Source: Periplaneta americana (taxonomy: Eukaryota; Arthropoda; Insecta; Blattodea; Blattidae). Taken from it: a stretch of 64,000 nucleotides of DNA. The notes beneath the pieces are model-generated. The model was given only the letters and a program-made list of their open reading frames with translations. It was not told the origin of the DNA and did no database searches. Shown one piece after another: positions 10,656 to 60,324 of the stretch. Location of the stretch: positions 171,527,244 through 171,591,243 of the forward strand of contig NC_091128.1 in the NCBI RefSeq assembly GCF_040183065.1. The letters are read 5' to 3'. Every line of letters starts with the position of its first letter. Within the stretch, counting starts at the first letter, position 1. Made by a program: the position numbers and the translations under genes.

Positions 10656-10850
10656 TGTAGAGATTAATTTTTTCGTCCTACAGAACTATCTGTGATAGTT
10701 ACCATTTGTTATTAACTGATAAAAATTCGCTCCAGCGCCGAGGATCGAACCCGGGTCTGCCAGTTATACACACTGGGTTTTCTAACCACTCAGCTATGCC
10801 GAAGTTCAACCCACCGCACCAGATCAAATCTTTCTTCTTTGGTAGCGAAG
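10656..10850 (-). repeat. tRNA-derived SINE, family S3 (copy 2)
   Basis: It repeats the 10256-10455 unit in the same orientation (GTAGAGATTAATTTTTTCGT, then the tRNA-like segment with GGGTTCGATCCTCGG on the - strand). Here the anticodon loop reads GTGTATA. The copies differ by scattered substitutions, so the duplication is not recent. Confidence 0.75.
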
Positions 10851-19600: not shown

Positions 19601-22600
19601 TAATCTCACTTTCACTACAGGATATTGTGAACAAATATTTCATAAGATCATAATTAAAACTTATTGCATATTTTGTGTAACGGGTGTTACATGCTACAGC
19701 AATTTTTATTATGCTATAATTAATTACTGAATTTGATCTTGCCTTGAATTGTAATATATGCTTGAACTTGGAAAGCTTCATACATTTCCTCCAAAAGTGC
19801 AAGATCAACAACATGGTGTTTTATGACAACAGCAGGATCTTAAACTTAAGCATGCGAAATAACATTTACTATTCAAAGAACCTACCAACAAACATATTAA
19901 AAACATATTCCATACAAGACAAATTTTCTTTAAGGGCAGTGTAATTCATACTTTTAACAGTTGATATATCAAAGCACCATACACTTTATTAATAAATGAA
20001 AAAATCACTCAGAGGCTCAGTTGGCATGGAATGACCCATTTATGCTCTCGGTTGGACGTTACTGTGGTAGCTTGTTTAGATTGTTAAGGGGTCTGTTTTT
20101 ATAAGAATTGTAGATTTGTGTAAGAGTGATATGATAATGCAGTTTTAGAGTATGATCCCAAAAGTAGCTCAGTTCATTTGGCCATTTTTATGATTTATAC
20201 ATTCATTTTAGACCTATGTCATTATATTTTAAGCTTGTTTTCTTCTAAAACAATGCTGAGCCTTATCTAGACCTGATACATTATGTTTAGGCCTGTCTAA
20301 AAGTTGTGTTATTGTGCCTGTCATTTGGCAACATGCTCAGTCCAGTCCGTAGACCAGTGGTTAAAAAAAACTAGCTCAGACATTTAATGAAAATGGACAT
20401 CCAGTTATGACTATTGTCCTTCTAAAAGGACAGTGGTCAATGTTTCAAATTACCCTCTCTGCAGTTAGCACATTTGCTTTTTCACTGGTGTCACTATTAC
20501 TGGTCTTAGAGGCTTGGTAAATGTGGTAGTTCTGATAATGTGAGTTCTGGTCATCGTTGAGTTTGAGATGTGGACGTGAGGGTGGTTCGTTTATTTCAGC
20601 TATGGCATCCGAAACGCAAATCAGATATGAAAGTTAAATATTGTTACAGTTCGAAATTATTTTACAAATTGTTGTAGATCAAATGATTCCTAATAAACAT
20701 AAATATTACGTGAAACCACAATGCGTTTGAGATATCTATTCATTGCTACATTACAATGACGAAAACTTATGTGTCCTTTTAAAAGGACAGTAGGAATATC
20801 CGCACACATTTTGAAATTGTGTTGCTTCCCCGCCTTTTCAAATTTTAGTGGATTTTCCCTGCATGAAATGCTGTGTTTGAAAATTATGCTACAGGCGAAA
20901 TTTCATCTGAAATACAGACATCGCTATAATGCCGCCTACAAATTCCACTGAAGACTTAACAGACGAGGATTCAGGGAGTTAGAAACGTGATGTAATACCT
21001 ACTAATCTATCTGCTTCACAGCTTGCAACAGGAGCAGAAAATATTTCAGCATAGCCTTCTTGTAGAGGAGGGGGAGGGGGATAGGAATGGGGTGACAAAT
21101 TTGTTGCATGTGAAGAGCAGACACAAGGTCAAAGCAGTGTTTCTGCGAACACAGCAAGATCTACATAATTTCAAGGGAAAAATTATTCTCGGGCCGGATA
21201 TCGATCCCGGAACCTTTGGCTTAGCGCACCAATGCTCTGCCGACTGAGCTACCCAGGAACTACACCCGACAGCGTCTCAACTTTTCCCTTTATATCCACA
21301 CACCTCAAGTGGGCTGACAAGACGCCAGAAACCCAACTTTTAGGGCACACAAACTCTGTGTGACTTGAATTTTTTTTTTTTGTTGATATTGTGATTGTAG
21401 GACGTAGCATCTCCAATTTAAAAGAGATGTTTAGGGTTTTAGATAATGAAGGCAAACATTGCTTAAAAGTAAAGTGAAGAAAAAACAAAATATATGAGAT
21501 TGGATAAACAGAGAAATGAAAGAGTAGTAAATTTTGAAGTGAATTAGCCTATAATTTCGAAATTGTTAAACAATTCACATATCTAGGATCGTCTATCAGT
21601 AATGAAAATAAAATAGAGAATGGAATTCATAAAAGAATAATGTATGTAAATAGAACTTATTTCTCGTTTTCACACATGTTCACATCAAGAATGCTATCTA
21701 AAGGAACAAAAACTTAAACTATATAGAACAATCATTCACCCAGTAGTTTCTTATGGAGAGGAAACATGAACAATGAAACTGTAAGATGAGAATAGCCTTT
21801 TCATCTTTGAAAAAAAAAAACATTTACGTAATATTTATGGTCCATTGTAAGAAAGGGGAGATTGGCGAAAGAGAACGAATAAAGAGATTGATCAGATATT
21901 GGAAGGCGAGAATATAGTGAGCTTTATTAAATCTATTAGGCTGAGATGGTTAGGACATGTAGTGAGAATGGAGGGGGGAAGGCTTCCTAAGATGATAATG
22001 AACGCAAGAATGGAGGGGGAAAGAAGAAGAGGAAGACAGAAGAAGCTGTGGACGGCTGAAGTATTGCGACACGTTACAAGCCTGGGTGGGAGTGAGGAAT
22101 TGGAGAACTGTGGCTGGGACAGAGTGAAGTGGAGAGCTGTTGTGAGAGAAGCCAAGGCCCACTTTGAACTGTGGTGCTACGGTTCACCCTGTATATCTTG
22201 ACTCAGCTCTCTTGTACCTTCAGGTACAGCAGGCTATTATTCAGTTCAGTTTATTAAGCCATTAAACATACAGTGATAGGCTTCGTCACAAAAAAAAAAA
22301 AAAAAACATGCATTTGAAAATATACATAGGCTATAATTGAAAACAATAATTAGAATGAAAACACAAAACATTTTGAAACTCTAAAATTAATGAAAACACT
22401 TCACTCTTATGTAATAATTGCAACTAATCTAAATATCTTTATTTGTTAAAAAACAATTTCGTATGAATTTATGTTAAGAAACTCATCTACAAAGTAGAAA
22501 GGAATAATTATAAGCCAATTATAAAATCTAGCTTTGAAACTGTTGGTTGGTAACTTATAATATTGACTGGGAAGCTTATTATATAATTTCATCCCCATGA

Positions 22601-31200: not shown

Positions 31201-34200
31201 GAAATATGCAAAAATGTCAACTGTAGTTTAAATTGAAGAGTCAAGTTTTGTAAAAATATATAATAAAAGTCTTCAATTTTGCTAATAATTTGTAAATTAG
31301 CAAAATTGTCAACTGCATTGAAGAGTCAAATTCTGTAAAAATATAAAACAAAAATCTTCAGTTTTGCTAATAATTTCGAAATATCCAAAATGTCAACTGT
31401 AGTACAAATTGAAGAATCGAGTTTTGTAAAAATATAAAACAAAAACCTTCAGTTTTGCTAATAATTTGTAAATATGCAAAAATATCAACTGTAGTCCAAA
31501 TTGAGGAGTTAAATTTTGAAAAATATACAATACAAATCTTCAATTTTGCTAATAATTTGGAAATACACAAAAATGTCAACTGTAGTTTAAATTGAAGAGT
31601 CAAGTTTTGTAAAAATATATAATAAAAGTCTTCAATTTTGCTAATAATTTGTAAATTAGCAAAATTGTCAACTGCATTGAAGAGTCAAATTCTGTAAAAA
31701 TATAAAACAAAAATCTTCAGTTTTGCTAATAATTTCGAAATATCCAAAATGTCAACTGTAGTACAAATTGAAGAATCGAGTTTTGTAAAAATATAAAACA
31801 AAAACCTTCAGTTTTGCTAATAATTTGTAAATATGCAAAAATATCAACTGTAGTCCAAATTGAGGAGTTAAATTTTGAAAAATATACAATACAAATCTTC
31901 AATTTTGCTAATAATTTGGAAATACACAAAAATGTCAACTGTAGTCTAAATTGAAGAGTCATATTTTGTAAAAATATATAATAAAAATCTTAAATTTTGC
32001 TAATAATTTGGAAATACACAAAAATGTCAACTGTAGTCTAAATTGAAGAGTCATATTTTGTAAAAATATATAATAAAAATCTTAAATTTTGCTAATAATT
32101 TGTCCACGTCTGTAGATCTACTTATTTAAAATTCATAAAAATTGTGTAATGGATATAGTATGGAGGGACAGTTTTGTGTAAGAACATAAAAGGAGCAGAC
32201 ATGCGAGTCAGTCTTTGTTCACTACAAATTCCAGTTGCATTGATTGGGATTTAAAGTCAGGTCTCCAGAATGGAAAGTCGATACTGTAGCTGTTCAGTTA
32301 GCAGTCTGTTGTTAGTCAACTGTTCGAAGACAAGTCTGAACCTCACAAGGCACCACTTATGAGGCAACTAGGCCAGGAGATAATGGGATATGGTACCAGT
32401 TCCTTTCTCCCTCAATTGCGTACATCACTGACTAGTAACATATTACACTAATCAGACTTCAGATGCATACAAACAATAACTGTTCTTTCTCTTACGCATA
32501 TCGTCAAGTGAGATGTACTGCCTTATAATTTAGAGTTGCTGCATGGAAATTACTATGGCTCAGTTTATTTTGATCATTTATGTGTAATTAATTCAAATTT
32601 TCTTATGCAGGAATTGTATTGTTGTCTTTTCATTTTTCGCAGACGACATTCATGTTACTGCTCCTGCTTCTGGCAAAAGGCTGGGCTGTTACAAGACTTG
32701 AATTGACTTGGAAGCCCTTGGTGTTTGCTATCTGGTTCCTGTATGGCGTGGTGCACATTCTTCTCTACGTCTGGAATATGGTAAGCAACAAGCAGAGTGC
32801 TGTAAAAAGGACATGTGAAGTTTTCCGTAGTTTTACATATATCCGTTTTTATTGTCTCGTGTTTGTACATAAAAATTATTATACATCAAACTCTGGATTA
32901 TCCGGGTTAACAGGAACTTAAGAATGCACGGATAAATGAAAAATGCTGCTCATCGTCATCAGCTGTAATGCATTGAGTTTCCAGGACCTGTTCTAACTGC
33001 AAGGACTCTTCGTCTTCCTATCTTCCATTGGGGTGTCCTCTTTTTCTTTACTCTTGTGTTGAACAATTTTTCACCATTTGTGCAGATTGAATTTGTTTTA
33101 ATTTTTCCAATATTGCCCATGTTCCATTGCCATACATGATAGCAACTATAGATATTATTTTATAAAATTTTTTTAACGTATCTTCCCTTGTTTTGTTATT
33201 ATTTTTTAGCCTTCTTACGAGTGTACTTTATCTCACAAAAAAATGTATAACTCTTGACTTGCAAATCAAGATTTCAGGTATAACTCCCTGTAAAGTTGAT
33301 TTGAATAATTTCGAGGAAAAATTGTTCCGGGGCCGGGCATCGAACCCGGGACCTTTGGTTTAACGTACCAACGCCCTACCAACTGAGCTACCCGGGAACT
33401 CTACCCGATACCGATCCAATTTTTCCCTCTATATCCACAGACCTCAAAGTGGGCTGACAACCGTCAAGCAACCAACTTCGAGTGCACATTAACTCCGTGT
33501 GACTTAAATTGCGGTTTTCTGTTAACGAACAGTGACATGTATTATGCAAATCAAGCTTTCAGGTATAACTCCCTGTAATGTTGATTTGAATAATTTCGAA
33601 GGAAAAATTGTTCCGGGGCCGGGCATCGAACCCGGGACCTTTGGTTTAACGTACCAACGCCCTACCAACTGAGCTACCCGGGAACTCTACCCAACACCGA
33701 TCCAATTTTTCCCTCTATATCCACAGACCTCAAAGTGGGCTGACAACCGTCAAGCAACCAACTTCGAGTGCACATTAACTCCGTGTGACTTAAATTGTGG
33801 TTTTCTGTTAACGAACAGTGACGTGTATTATGCAAATCAAGCTTTCAGGTATAACTCCCTGTAATGTCGATTTGAATAATTTCGAAGGAAAAATTGTTCC
33901 GGGGCCGGGCATCGAACCCGGGACCTTTGGTTTAATGTACCAACGCCCTACCAACTGAGCTACCCGGGAACTGTACCCGACACCGATCCAATTTTTCCCT
34001 CTATATCCACAGACCTCAAAGTGGGCTGACAACCGTCAAGCAACCAACTTCGAGTGCACATTAACTCCGTGTGACTTAAATTGTGGTTTTCTGTTAACGA
34101 ACAGTGACATGTATTATGCAAATCAAGCTTTCAGGTATAACTCCCTGTAATGTTGATTTGAATAATTTCGAAGGAAAAATTGTTCCGGGGCCTGGCATTT

Positions 34201-37200
34201 AACCCGGGACCTTTGGTTTAACGTATGTTGGTTGCTTGACGGTTGTCAGCCCACTTTGAGGTCTGTGGATATAGAGGGAAAAATTGGATCGGTGTCAGGT
34301 AGAGTTCCTGGGTAGCTCAGTTGGTAGAGCGTTGGTACGTTAAACCAAAGGTCCTGGGTTCGATGCCCGGCTCCGGAAAAATTTTTCCCCCGAAATTATT
34401 CAACTCTTGACTTATTCCACATCTTAAAGCTTAAAATCTATGCAATACAATGAATGATATACAGTGCTGTCATTTTACAAGGAAACTAGATTACAGCGGA
34501 ACCCCGGCATACACTTTCCTGCGTGTCGTGCTTGCAGCAGCAGGGATCATGTTCTGTTACTATCGGCAAGATTTTGTAGGAATGCTAGAGTCAGGATATT
34601 TACGAGCAAATCTCCGAACATATCTTCTATAGTTATCTTTTTTTCACGTAACATTTCACCAAATAAATTCGCTGTTCAACCGTTTACTTCATTTTCCAAT
34701 CGATTATTTAATACACAAGCGACAGTCACATACGTGTTCCAGTACAGTTCTCAGAAGCAACTCATTGCTGGGATGTTTTGTAGAACTGGCTTCCAACGCT
34801 GCGATTGGGAGAGCAGGAAGTCGGCTGGCGACAGAGTGATGTGAAGTTTCCTTGTAAAATGAGAGCACTGTATGTGATATATGATATGAGCTGTATCGGG
34901 TAGAAGTCGGGATGGTACCCGCTGTAGGCGATGTCTCAGCGAGATTGAAACTCTTCCCCATATCCTTGGCTTCTGCCCCTATAGTGAGTCCCTTCACAAC
35001 ATCCGTCACCATGCTGTCCATTCTATGCTGGCTGAGGCATTGAAGGAAGTAGGGTTTACAGTCCATCAAGAGGTACAGGGACTAGCCACACAAGGAAGTG
35101 TTCGGCGAATTGATATCATTGCCATTAAGAACAACTCGGTATACATTCTCGATCCCACCATCAGATTTGAGACACATGCAGATCAACCGCATGAGGTGGA
35201 CAGTGAAAAGAAACGAATCTATGAACCAACAATCCCGTTCTTTAAAGATAAATATAGCCTGTCTCACATTGATGTAATAGGTCTGATGGTGGGAGCACGA
35301 GTTACCATACCCTCCTTCTTTGTCAGCAAATGTAAAAACCTGGGGATAACACACAGCATTGTGAAGGAAATAGCCATTAGTGCCCTCAAGGATCAGTTCA
35401 GATATTGAGAAATCATTTGTATGGGAGTGATAATGGAAATTTGAAGTTATCTTAACTGATGGCTGTTGAATGATTTAGATATTAGTGCCAATAAATCCGT
35501 ATTATTTTTCTCGCGGTATATGGCATTCAAATCACTCTAACCTATCTGATGATTTTTTTCCCCTTTTCTTAACTGTAAATGAGCACAAACGCTACTTAGG
35601 TGTAAATTTTTCTGACATTTTGTATATTCGATTCCCTAACCGTTTCAAATGTATATCATTTTACCTTTTAGGTGTGTTTCCAAATTATATGTAATATGCT
35701 TTGTCAAATCTGGCAACCTTTTCATAAGGGAAGCTAAATTTATATTTATATATATCATTTTCTAGTTTGTCCCTTACTCAATTGTTTAATTTTAAATTTC
35801 AAAATTAAATTTTATTTTTTATAAGACAGTTTGTGGTTTGGAATTGAACGGATTACATCAGCTTGTCTATGCGGATGACATGAATATGCTAGGAGAAAAT
35901 CCACAAACAATTAGGGAAAACACGGAAATTTTACTTGAAGCAAGTAAAGCGATCGGTTTGGAAGTAAATCCCGAAAAGACAAAGTATATGATTATGTCTC
36001 GTGACCAGAATATTGTACGAAATGGAAATATAAAAATTGGAGATTTATCTTTTGAAGAGGTGGAAAAATTCAAATATCTTGGAGCAACAGTAACAAATAT
36101 AAATGACACTCGGGAGGAAATTAAACGCATATTCAATATGGGAAATGCCTGTTATTATTCGTTTGAGAAGCTTTTGTTATCCAGTCTGCTGTCAAAAAAT
36201 CTGAAAGTTAGAATGTATAAAACAGTTATATTACCGGTTGTTCTGTTTGGTTGTGAAACTTGGACTTTCACTTTGAGAGAGGAACAGAGATTAAGGGTGT
36301 TTGAGAATAAGGTTCTTAGGAAAATATTTGGGGCTGAAAGGGATGAAGTTACAGGAGAATGGAGAAAGTTACACAACGCAGAACTGCATGCATTGTATTT
36401 TTCACCTGACATAATTAGGAACATATTTTGAGATAGATTTTGTCTCACATAATAGTTGAAGTTGACTGCAGTGTGCAGATCTGATTTGATTAGATGTATC
36501 GTGCTCCTGTTTCGAACATCTGTCCAATTATTGTTCATGAGATAAAACATCCTTTTTATATGAGCATTACTACTTGGTATGCTTAGAACAAACTAACCAG
36601 TCTGCCGCCCTGCCCATCTCAAACGTGGTATGGAAAGGACCTTTGGGGAGGTCGAGACATAGATGGGAGGATAATATTAAAATAGATTTGAGGGAGGTGG
36701 GATATGATGGTAGGGACTGGATTAATCTTGCTTAGGATAGGGACCGATAGTGGGCTTACGTGAGGGCGGCAATGAAACTCGGGGTTCTCTAAGTAAGTAT
36801 GTACCTTACTTAACCAGATTCATAAAATCCACTACTCAGTTGCAATACTTTAAGTCGTTCTAATTGTGATGTTGATTAAAACATTTGAGTTGTGACTAAT
36901 ACATTTCTCTCTGTTTTATGCAGACTGAGGTGGATATAATAGAAGACATAGACGAGTACCAGACTTGGCCCGGTTGGTTGATAATTGTGTTCCGAACCTT
37001 GATCATGGTATGGTTCTTGTTTGAGCTGCGCAATACCATGATGTACGAACACAACACACAGAAACTGAACTTCTTCCTTCATTTCGGAGCATCAGCATTG
37101 GTGTGGTTCATATATTTACCCATCATTGCACTTATTGCCCTACAGGTATCTGCTCTCTGGAGATTCAAACTTTTACTCGGTAAGTGCACTGCCTTATTAA

Positions 37201-46392: not shown

Positions 46393-46406
46393 CATTATTG
46401 AATATT

Positions 46407-46874
46407 TGAATAATTTCAAGGGAAAAATTGTTCTGGGGCCGGGTATCGATCCCGGGACCTCTGGTTGAACATACCAGCGCTCTTACCCACTGAGCTACCT
46501 GGGAACTCCACCCGACACCGTCTCAACTTTTCCCTTTATATCCACACGACTCGCGTGGGCTGACGAAACGCCAGAGACCCACATCGAGTGCACACAATCT
46601 CTGTGTGACTTGGAATTGTGGTTTTCTGTTAACGTACACAGTGACGAAACTGTTTCGAAACACGGGATCAATACCCGGCCCCGGAACAATTTTTCCCTTG
46701 AAATTATTCAAATCTGCTTTCCTGGGATCGATACCAGGCCCCGGAACAATTTTTCCCTTGAAATTATTCAAATCTGCTTTACCCCGGGATTGATACCCTG
46801 CCCCGGAACAATTTTTTCCCTTGAAATTATTCAAATCTGCTTTACAGGGAGCTTCACCTGAAAGACTAGATTTG
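46407..46874. mobile_element. Composite inverted tRNA-like element, locus 2
   Basis: A 468-bp unit flanked by the 14-bp direct repeat CATTATTGAATATT (46393-46406, 46875-46888). The left part is a family S4 unit with a - strand tRNA-like sequence (about 46433-46506). It then switches to inverted sequence: three tandem copies of about 60 bp (CCGGAACAATTTTTCCCTTG...AAATTATTCAAATCTGCTTT) at about 46665-46845, ending in the family terminal sequence GGGAGCTTCACCTGAAAGAC. The tandem part differs from the ~285-bp units in the other composites. Confidence 0.82.
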
Positions 46875-47020
46875 CATTATTGAATATTCTTTCTATGACA
46901 TACGCTCCCAAAACCATAGTGAAATTACTTGTATGGTTGCCCAACTGTGGTGACATCTGGCTACAATGTCATCTTTTTTAAAGCATATCTGTCATTAGTC
47001 TTTCTGAGCTAAAACCACCG

Positions 47021-57820: not shown

Positions 57821-57858
57821 GTAACACATCCATCTATGATGGCAAGAATGTACAAATG

Positions 57859-58426
57859 CAAATCAAGATTTCAGGTATAACTCCCCGTACAGTTGATTTG
57901 AATAATTTCGAGGGAAAAATTGTTCCGGAGCCGGGTATCGAACCCGGGACCCTTGGTTTAACGTACCAACGCTCTACCACTGAGCTACCCGGGAACTCTA
58001 ACCGACACTGATCCAATTTTTCCCTCTATATCCACAGACCTCAAAGTGGGCTGACAACCGTCAAGCAACCAACTTCGAGTGCACATTAACTCTGTGTGAC
58101 TTAAATTGTGGTTTTCTGTTAACGAACAGTGACGTGTATTATGCAAATCAAGCTTTCAGGTATAACTCCCTGTAATGTTGATTTGAATAATTTCGAAGGA
58201 AAAATTGTTCCGGGGCCTGGCATTTAACCCGGGACCTTTGGTTTAACGTATGTTGGTTGCTTGACGGTTGTCAGCCCACTTTGAGGTCTGTGGATATAGA
58301 GAGAAAAATTGGATCGGTGTCGGGTAGAGTTCCCGGGTAGCTCAGTTGGTAGAGCGTTGGTACGTTAAACCAAAGGTCCTGGGTTCGATGCCCGGCTCCG
58401 GAACAATTTTTCCCTCGAAATTATTC
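57859..58426. mobile_element. Composite inverted tRNA-like element, locus 3
   Basis: A 568-bp unit flanked by the 12-bp direct repeat AATGTACAAATG (57847-57858, 58427-58438). It contains a - strand tRNA-like unit (57924-57994), a second decayed one (CCTGGCATTTAACCCGGG near 58215), the same abrupt switch point as locus 1 (after TTTAACGTA at about 58250), and an inverted + strand tRNA-like end (58331-58402). Two units against four in locus 1. Confidence 0.88.
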
Positions 58427-58494
58427 AATGTACAAATGGTTCCACAGAAGAGAGATTCGAAATGCAACGTGTTAAGAGGCGGCTATTCCCAATC

Positions 58495-59807: not shown

Positions 59808-60293
59808 TTACATTAATCTCAGATGTTTGGTTACTTGATCTATGAGAAAACTTTCTCCAGGGCCAATTCCTAAGACAGTAGCACTGCCACTCTCAATCTG
59901 AGTCTTGCCAGCATCCCTGATTAAAACAGTTATCAACCCTAGTGTCTTTGCTTTTTCATCGAGTTGAATCAGGCAATCTTCCCCTTTATCTTCAGCCTTC
60001 AGTACTACCTTAGGTTGCCCCATTAGCTCCCATAACTTCAAAGTATTTGGTGATACTTTTAGTGCATTTTTATAGCAACATACTGCCGCATGAGCACACT
60101 GTGAAGCCAATTTTCCCTTCCCCATTCCTAAATCTGTTCGTACCACTAATACTAACTTCATATTAGATTGCATCATTTGCGTTATATTTCGGAAGTTCAT
60201 TGACTGAAATCTTTTCAGAATCCAACAACTGCTAACGCCGATTATTACACCAGTCAAAAAATATTGGTAATTTCTGTATTCTTGCGAAATCAT
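59808..60293 (-). CDS. PTRH2: Peptidyl-tRNA hydrolase 2 (single exon)
   Basis: 161 codons. Pth2 hydrolyses the ester bond of peptidyl-tRNA to recycle stalled tRNAs; the animal protein is anchored in the mitochondrial outer membrane. Residues 11-27 ([17 protein letters not shown]) form the N-terminal anchor, and the catalytic domain starts at residue 45 ([20 protein letters not shown]). Family motifs are intact: [18 protein letters not shown], and [20 protein letters not shown]. Human PTRH2 has 179 residues, so the length is normal. The start is ATG at 60293; an upstream TTG codon in frame is not used as the start here. It lies 31 bp downstream of the COA4 stop, same strand, different frame. 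Confident identification. Confidence 0.95.
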
Positions 60294-60324
60294 TATAATT
60301 ATCAAGATTCAGACTGATTCAATA

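Follow-up and report, generated by a model that had tools for sequence, protein, structure and literature searches.

Head-to-head tRNA-bearing repeats in Periplaneta americana and their probable mobilisation by Penelope-like elements

Results

Three inverted tRNA-bearing loci and their repeat unit

The DNA analysed here, referred to as the window, is a 64,000-nucleotide stretch of the Periplaneta americana genome (C12:171527244-171591243, within 3,231,669,367 bases in 91 contigs) that contains three copies of a short repeat carrying a tRNA-like gene, each present as a pair of inverted arms. An original prediction, made from the letters of the window, had described these loci (33261-34401, 46407-46874 and 57859-58426) as a dimeric inverted element. 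Both the inverted arms and the perfect direct repeats that flank them were confirmed at these coordinates, and across the arms of the three loci ARAGORN called seven tRNA-Asn genes, of which one has anticodon att; Rfam likewise called seven tRNAs.

Decoded against a cyclic unit, the arms consist of repeats of approximately 285-292 bp, with a unit of 286 bp in subfamily A (loci 1 and 3) and 292 bp in subfamily B (locus 2). The unit begins with approximately 146 nt, followed by the tRNA-Asn-like gene, TTTTT directly after it, and then a stem-loop. Sense-strand 3' ends lie at two sites approximately 41 nt apart that flank this stem-loop: site a, at approximately unit position 245 in A and 250 in B, where the sequence up to the end is ...GAAATTATTC(AA), and site b, at the unit border (approximately position 286 in A), where it is ...GATTTG(CA). 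The two sites oppose each other at a T.C mismatch in the stem ATTAT-T-CAAATC.../...GATTTG-C-ATAAT, and the outer ends of each of the three loci are two different unit sites, a and b. The features of the loci, with tRNA calls made by both ARAGORN and Rfam, are as follows.

33249-33260 (left) and 34402-34413 (right), no strand: target-site duplication (TSD) of locus 1, AACTCTTGACTT
33261-34225, minus strand: locus 1 left arm, antisense, b-end outermost, to unit position 178
34226, no strand: locus 1 switch point, a single T outside both arms
34227-34401, plus strand: locus 1 right arm, sense, from unit position 69 to the a-end
33324-33397, minus strand: tRNA-Asn(gtt)-like gene, locus 1, with CAATTTTT next in the sense direction
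33610-33683, minus strand: tRNA-Asn(gtt)-like gene, locus 1
33896-33969, minus strand: tRNA-like gene with anticodon att, locus 1
34305-34379, plus strand: tRNA-Asn(gtt)-like gene, locus 1
33545-33597, also about 33831-33883 and about 34117-34169, minus strand: a-b stem-loop, locus 1 (limits approximate)
46393-46406 (left) and 46875-46888 (right), no strand: TSD of locus 2, CATTATTGAATATT
46407-46646, minus strand: locus 2 left arm, unit B, antisense, a-end outermost
46430-46504, minus strand: tRNA-Asn(gtt)-like gene, locus 2
46661-46874, plus strand: locus 2 right arm, sense, b-end outermost, with three starts at unit positions of about 200
57847-57858 (left) and 58427-58438 (right), no strand: TSD of locus 3, AATGTACAAATG
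57859-58250, minus strand: locus 3 left arm, antisense, b-end outermost
58251, no strand: locus 3 switch point, the same as in locus 1
58252-58426, plus strand: locus 3 right arm, sense, a-end outermost
57922-57994, minus strand: tRNA-Asn(gtt)-like gene, locus 3
58331-58404, plus strand: tRNA-Asn(gtt)-like gene, locus 3

The left arm of locus 1 holds slightly more than three 286-bp units (four copies, with the final one incomplete) and that of locus 3 two unit copies, the final one again incomplete, which bears out the four and two internal units first counted. Locus 2 expands a different subunit, as had been proposed, in the form of three sub-repeats of approximately 60 bp. These repeats (46661-46880) span the T-arm to just beyond site a, and GGGA at both jump points suggests repeated template back-jumps between the T-arm GGGA and the tail GGGA.

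In agreement with the original prediction, unit number varies, and copies lie at thousands of genomic sites, with 9617 exact core matches genome-wide for A and 4314 for B (counts of units, not of insertions); the reversed core patterns of A and B gave no genome matches. Insertions are either 5'-truncated copies, often in tandem arrays, or head-to-head arm pairs, and the 5' truncation points of copies fall at many different positions. Within A arrays, units are 98.1-99.8% alike in 13 of 14 arrays and 95.4% in the other, compared to 96.7% between arrays. The stem is preserved between subfamilies, with 97.2% of pair cells standard compared to 20-43% in slid controls, and shows one A-U/U-A double change.

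The most conserved part of unit A, positions of approximately 221-245 from the tRNA to site a (mean variability 0.0044, compared to 0.012-0.019 elsewhere, across 27 loci), is possibly a binding site for the reverse transcriptase (RT). Single units have recurrently lost approximately 20-22 nt from the T-arm region of the tRNA-like gene (L012 at 2722/2724, L045 at 1406/1409 and L072 at 1351/1352), which may reflect an RT skipping the tRNA hairpin. At C1:13807432-13813291, a unit B array of approximately 6 kb contains 11 exact cores in the same orientation.

Inverted copies carry one end of each kind

Ends were counted in 70 distinct loci that hold 52 inverted copies, with the window's own three loci included and L003-L008 (duplicates of L009-L014) and decoded groups below 150 bp left out. 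An end was classed as a if it lay no more than 14 nt from unit position 245/250, and as b if no more than 12 nt from the unit border. On this basis, 48/52 inverted copies have one a-end and one b-end, while a+a and b+b are each represented by 0. Loci of subfamily A found with the whole query (window loci included) yielded 21 a+b copies and 2 with a and an unclassified end, and those found with one arm 6 a+b copies and 1 with b and an unclassified end. For subfamily B, the top matches (window locus included) were a+b in 13/13 cases, and loci found with one arm gave 8 a+b copies and 1 with b and an unclassified end, so that the two arm-selected subsets together stand at 14/16 a+b and 2/16 b with an unclassified end. 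Non-inverted copies, which make up 20/36 of these two subsets, end at a in 8 cases, at b in 11 and elsewhere in 1, indicating that a and b each function alone.

Because the decoded loci had been obtained by similarity to the window elements, we also drew a sample blind to structure. The first 100 listed of the 9617 A core matches include 11 opposite-strand pairs no more than 1.5 kb apart, all of them head to head as judged by eye; extrapolated to 9617, 11 per 100 corresponds to perhaps a thousand head-to-head A copies. Ten of the 11 pairs were fetched, a three-core pair being left out, and 9/10 decoded as a+b, with a TSD of 12-14 bp in 7/10. Among 100 listed of the 4314 B matches, the 6 opposite-strand pairs were head-to-head only, again by eye. 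Median arm lengths were 251.5 for the a-arm and 298 for the b-arm (Wilcoxon p 0.36), with a Spearman coefficient of -0.40 that we leave uninterpreted because of the query choice. A sum rule relating the two junction coordinates, hinted at by the first A loci, was also considered and rejected: these loci had been chosen by likeness to locus 3, and by eye the B loci did not show it.

Duplications are shared by most copies, switch points by almost none

With elements no more than 40 bp from a locus edge left out, a flanking repeat of 10 bp or more was present in 40/51 inverted copies compared to 1/997 mismatched flank pairs, which excludes chance, and in 13/20 non-inverted copies compared to 0/377. 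The earlier claim that the structure inserts as one unit with duplications is supported, most of them being of 12-14 bp. TSDs measure 10-16 bp with a mode of 13-14, and their first letters are CA or AA in 19/40 cases at the b side and 23/40 at the a side.

Switch points vary by copy, showing either microhomology of 0-5 nt or filler of no more than 17 nt, and except for window loci 1 and 3 all decoded head-to-head switches differ in sequence; those of L010 and L027 share the same unit coordinates and are a 4-nt filler apart. As switch points are individual, the inversion is re-made at nearly every insertion. They are not fully random, since some stop points recur among inverted copies (unit position 208 in five, 57 in three); these are perhaps structural stops for the enzyme, to which query choice may contribute.

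Loci 1 and 3 do share a switch, ...TTTAACGTA followed by a single T and then GTTGGTTGC, as well as the odd CCTGGCATTTAACCCGGG change, both as originally reported. This switch had been expected in many copies, but a 33-mer spanning it (no more than 2 mismatches) has exactly 2 genome matches, both in the window, compared to the 9617 unit cores. The junction units of the two loci share 8/8 variants, and the right arms share 4 with 5 unshared, whereas the outer unit of locus 3 shares 1 variant with that of locus 1 and differs at 14. The flanks of the two loci show no relationship, with 153/325 and 161/330 aligned columns identical, and these are therefore separate insertions, which disposes of the objection that they belong to one segmental duplication. 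The pair is a local exception, in which the pattern of variants best fits gene conversion or a chimeric re-copy, not simple inheritance of the entire structure. An argument for gene conversion from the gradient of identity between loci 1 and 3 was set aside, as by eye locus 1's own units also differ most there.

Penelope-like elements of the genome have the same two end kinds

Among the best 150 scored of 7670 first-look candidates, at least 108 matches to the GIY-YIG domain (PF01541) of Penelope-like elements (PLEs) exceeded the Pfam cut-off, and the matches listed include ten opposite-strand pairs within approximately 10 kb, all head to head by eye. Both 3' ends were read in 4/10 of these pairs, three from family 1 and one from a related family, and all four (C4 94.35 Mb, C12 28.90 Mb, C15 136.94 Mb and C10 109.03 Mb) have one tail-less and one tailed end, within TSDs of 12-15 bp. 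In a hammerhead-bearing family whose open reading frame (ORF) was unread, 40 listed matches include 12 pairs no more than 5 kb apart, all head to head by eye, and 11/12 combine one short and one long 3' match, as judged by eye from match lengths alone. The top GIY-YIG match, C85:1043112-1043339 (E 4.9e-11), has a 631-aa open frame and scores far above the others listed; its contig is outside the 17 large ones.

Rfam cmscan searches of the window at gathering threshold and of one array at E<=10 returned tRNA and a sub-threshold MIR1031 alone. This is a weak negative for hammerheads because cmscan also missed those of the PLEs, and we therefore used a core-plus-stem motif scan, which found cores in 14/15 PLE pieces (several from one insertion) against a background of 14 in 499934 nt.

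One copy of the hammerhead-bearing family, L111, consists of a hammerhead-type core, family sequence, and then the element's tail from the a-site to b. Behind the core it resembles PLE family 2 at 28/32 positions, and its tail is identical to that of B at 47/51 and to that of A at 45/50. We considered whether this tail is native to the family and rejected it: L112, the sole typical copy of the family that was read, has a different tail, and the L111 tail belongs to a third element subfamily with 123 matches at no more than 2 mismatches, some spaced 286-288 bp. L111 is therefore probably a chimera, with the structure expected had copying moved over from element RNA to that of the PLE inside the stem-loop, and it is evidence of the two RNAs meeting, not of the hammerhead family as tail donor. 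The second of our pattern searches for a partner PLE gave 2 matches, namely L111 and an element fragment beside GAAAACGTT. When the subfamily C tail was compared with those of PLE3, PLE1 and PLE1b, 6, 4 and 17 of 2000 shuffles, respectively, were as good.

Discussion

A probable PLE-dependent element

Based on the unit architecture, the ends and TSDs, the head-to-head order, the one-of-each rule and its presence in four PLE pairs, and the L111 tail, all of which are read directly from the copies, we consider it very probable that the three loci are copies of a tRNA-carrying non-autonomous retroelement mobilised by PLEs. At 285-292 bp the unit is too small for an ORF encoding RT and GIY-YIG, and it can therefore be a PLE dependent at most; it also lacks the hammerhead that PLEs carry in their pseudo-long terminal repeats (pLTRs). 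It nevertheless has the two PLE-type 3' ends separated by a 30-40-bp tail in a stem-loop (41 bp in A), and the head-to-head inverted ends with a tail on one (48/52 decoded copies, 9/10 blind-sample pairs, 4/4 PLE pairs). The tRNA identified by ARAGORN and Rfam is a predicted promoter for RNA polymerase III (Pol III), as in short interspersed elements (SINEs), but it does not form a 5' head: approximately 146 nt precede it, and arrays continue through into further units. The motif scan did not detect the type I hammerhead per unit that defines retrozymes, and the outer end, variable in twin priming by long interspersed elements (LINEs), is fixed in 48/52. The element thus fails as a SINE (5' head), as a PLE (ORF, hammerhead) and as a retrozyme (hammerhead), and works like a PLE dependent.

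PAc, a PLE of Anolis presented as the first PLE active in vitro, cuts and extends both strands from two adjacent RT starts in a stem-loop, its genomic 'tail' being the stretch between those starts (PMC11167929), and Penelope inserts can end in inverted pLTRs with the tail at one (PMC3846280). With such Penelope/Poseidon PLEs (PAc; the Pen families of Adineta), the element has in common tandem or partial tandem units, head-to-head ends, TSDs, a tail of 30-40 bp that may be present at one end, two adjacent internal RT starts located in a stem-loop, and cutting as well as priming of both strands (PMC11167929, PMC3846280). It differs in having a tRNA-like gene and neither ORF nor hammerhead core, in duplications of mostly 12-14 bp compared to the 8-10 bp given for A. 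vaga PLEs (PMC3846280), and in that, almost without exception, one end and only one bears a tail. Metazoan (non-LTR) retrozymes are described as similarly non-autonomous, low-GC repeats of approximately 300 bp, from dimers to long multimers, with larger TSDs (PMC7229834); they are defined by a type I hammerhead, in contrast with a tRNA and no hammerhead found here, and the main text of that paper does not contain the word 'inverted'. The tRNA SINEs of Blattodea (Sbg1-9 of Blattella germanica; Talua-Talud) also combine a tRNA-like gene with TSDs of 10-15 bp, and Sbg9 is dimeric, but the 5' end of Sbg SINEs lies 11 bp before the A box and their 3' end consists of poly(A) or short repeats (PMC9191728), whereas the element has approximately 146 nt before the tRNA and a stem-loop end at either of two sites, a comparison made by description alone. 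The TRIMp3 elements (Helenus, Ajax, Cassandra) are likewise non-autonomous with a small-RNA gene within the repeated part, but are long terminal repeat (LTR) elements with a primer-binding site and polypurine tract (PBS/PPT) and TSDs of 4-5 bp (Helenus), and the consulted sections of PMC10886601 do not mention head-to-head copies. No PLE-mobilised tRNA element was found in the literature searched, which lay outside subscription papers and Repbase.

A model for insertion

The element RNA would probably be a run of units of approximately 286-292 nt, with arrays reflecting a multimeric (or circular) RNA, and the stem-loop after the tRNA-like gene would imitate the PLE stem-loop at which reverse transcription begins. 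The cuts made by the PLE enzyme in the two target strands would be offset, mostly by 12-14 nt, and each cut 3' end could prime cDNA at one side of the stem-loop, a being the 5' side and b the 3' side. Priming by one strand would leave a 5'-truncated, often tandem copy; with both strands priming, one would do so at a and the other at b, and the cDNAs would be joined head to head at a variable point. Such double priming would account both for the switch points peculiar to each copy and for the one end of each kind. We infer that a PLE dimer on a single stem-loop would serve both target strands, one of them receiving a and the other b. The tRNA may act as a Pol III promoter, or as an RNase P/Z processing signal replacing the PLE hammerhead. 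With rather less assurance, we lean towards a fuller scenario in which a class of tRNA-bearing elements ('Penelope SINEs') replaced the usual LINE tail by the stem-loop at which Penelope RT starts, the tRNA taking the hammerhead's place, and in which each double priming uses both facing sites of one stem-loop, one per strand, leaving the estimated thousand or so head-to-head A copies.

The PLE insertion process is largely open, and this family, with its thousands of exact A cores in a chromosome-scale genome, has ends and TSDs that are readable in most decoded copies. Under the one-of-each rule, the 'optional tail' becomes a constraint that can be quantified: a and b each serve alone, but paired primings never share a site in decoded copies. 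The findings also suggest that tRNA-bearing short retroelements need not rely on LINEs, and if the model is true, head-to-head copies would preserve, like fossils, the action of a dimeric PLE complex on one RNA stem.

Several observations weigh against mobilisation by PLEs or against parts of the model. The TTTTT after the tRNA should stop Pol III and speaks against a full-unit RNA made by simple read-through. Four of the 52 inverted copies, including one cut by its locus edge (L016, 1-470), have an unclassified end, and one of the ten blind-sample pairs combines a with an end within the tail. Covariation in the stem is modest, since it amounts to one double-changed pair whose score is reached in 19/500 shuffles, with the structure taken from folds of the same sequences. 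In B, units are hardly more alike within arrays than between them (96.1-97.3% within, 95.8% between). The motif scan found no hammerhead core on either strand of units A, consensus A or B, and none in the PLE piece L079. The PLEs themselves were identified by the GIY-YIG domain alone; the three PLE family 2 ends that were read, from one side each of L080, L082 and L083, terminate at nearly the same position, so that two end kinds were not seen there, and 1/12 pairs of the hammerhead-bearing family is short+short. The evidence of L111 comes from one copy, of which one side was read, in a family whose ORF was unread. Tail shuffles covered subfamilies B and C and are uneven for B (13, 74 and 108 of 2000 as good for PLE3, PLE1 and PLE1b); the PLE tails are not strongly alike mutually, as PLE1 against PLE3 was equalled by 281 of 2000. 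A PLE with an ORF and the element's stem-loop was not found, and the genome pattern joining a hammerhead end to the a-site had 0 matches.

Alternative explanations

The hairpin SINE lineage originally proposed, in which one inverted master is copied whole and expands in tandem later, draws on the switch and the 8/8 junction-unit variants that loci 1 and 3 share at different targets. It is refuted as a general account, and we regard it as highly improbable: the switch occurs twice in the genome, other inverted copies have junctions of their own, the outer units of the pair share 1 variant and differ at 14, and head-to-head tRNA promoters face outwards, so no Pol III transcript would be expected to cross the junction. 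Of the dimeric inverted element, unit insertion with duplications stands, but descent from one master does not. Even less can be said for a foldback or miniature inverted-repeat (MITE-like) DNA transposon that has long inverted repeats and is mobilised by a transposase, despite inverted arms lying within duplications of nearly constant length. The two termini differ (a and b), the arms are unequal and of variable length, 20/36 copies of the arm-selected subsets lack an inversion, and 5' truncation occurs at many different positions.

A conventional tRNA SINE, mobilised by a LINE and often subject to twin priming (5' inversion), would explain the tRNA-like gene, TSDs of 10-16 bp, 5' truncation and junction microhomology, the last being typical of twin priming. 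In that process, however, the inverted part has an outer end that varies in position, whereas here this end lies at a fixed a or b in 48/52 copies and the same site is never used twice. Together with a tRNA in mid-unit, arrays of 285-292 bp, no poly(A) or microsatellite tail seen, and PLEs of the same genome that give the same two end kinds (no LINE search was made), this renders the explanation unlikely. A retrozyme-like circular RNA, with the RT running round a circular monomer to yield tandem arrays, deserves somewhat more weight, although we still doubt it. Unit size, arrays, TSDs and low GC match metazoan retrozymes as the text of PMC7229834 presents them, and 13/14 A arrays exceed the likeness between arrays; against this, A and B contain no hammerhead core on either strand, Rfam returned tRNA alone above threshold (a weak negative), the B array effect is slight, and a multimeric linear RNA also gives arrays. 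Circular RNA is compatible with mobilisation by PLEs, and it is therefore a rival for the form of the RNA alone.

Other features of the window

An old B-like copy lies on the minus strand at 21151-21384 (83% identity), and an AT-rich tandem array of ten 91-bp copies with a higher-order period of approximately 359 bp occupies 31201-32102, near locus 1. A minus-strand open frame of 166 aa at 59808-60308 appears to resemble peptidyl-tRNA hydrolase 2. At 10729-10803, also on the minus strand, ARAGORN called a tRNA-Tyr with no Rfam match at gathering threshold, possibly another, older tRNA-derived repeat.

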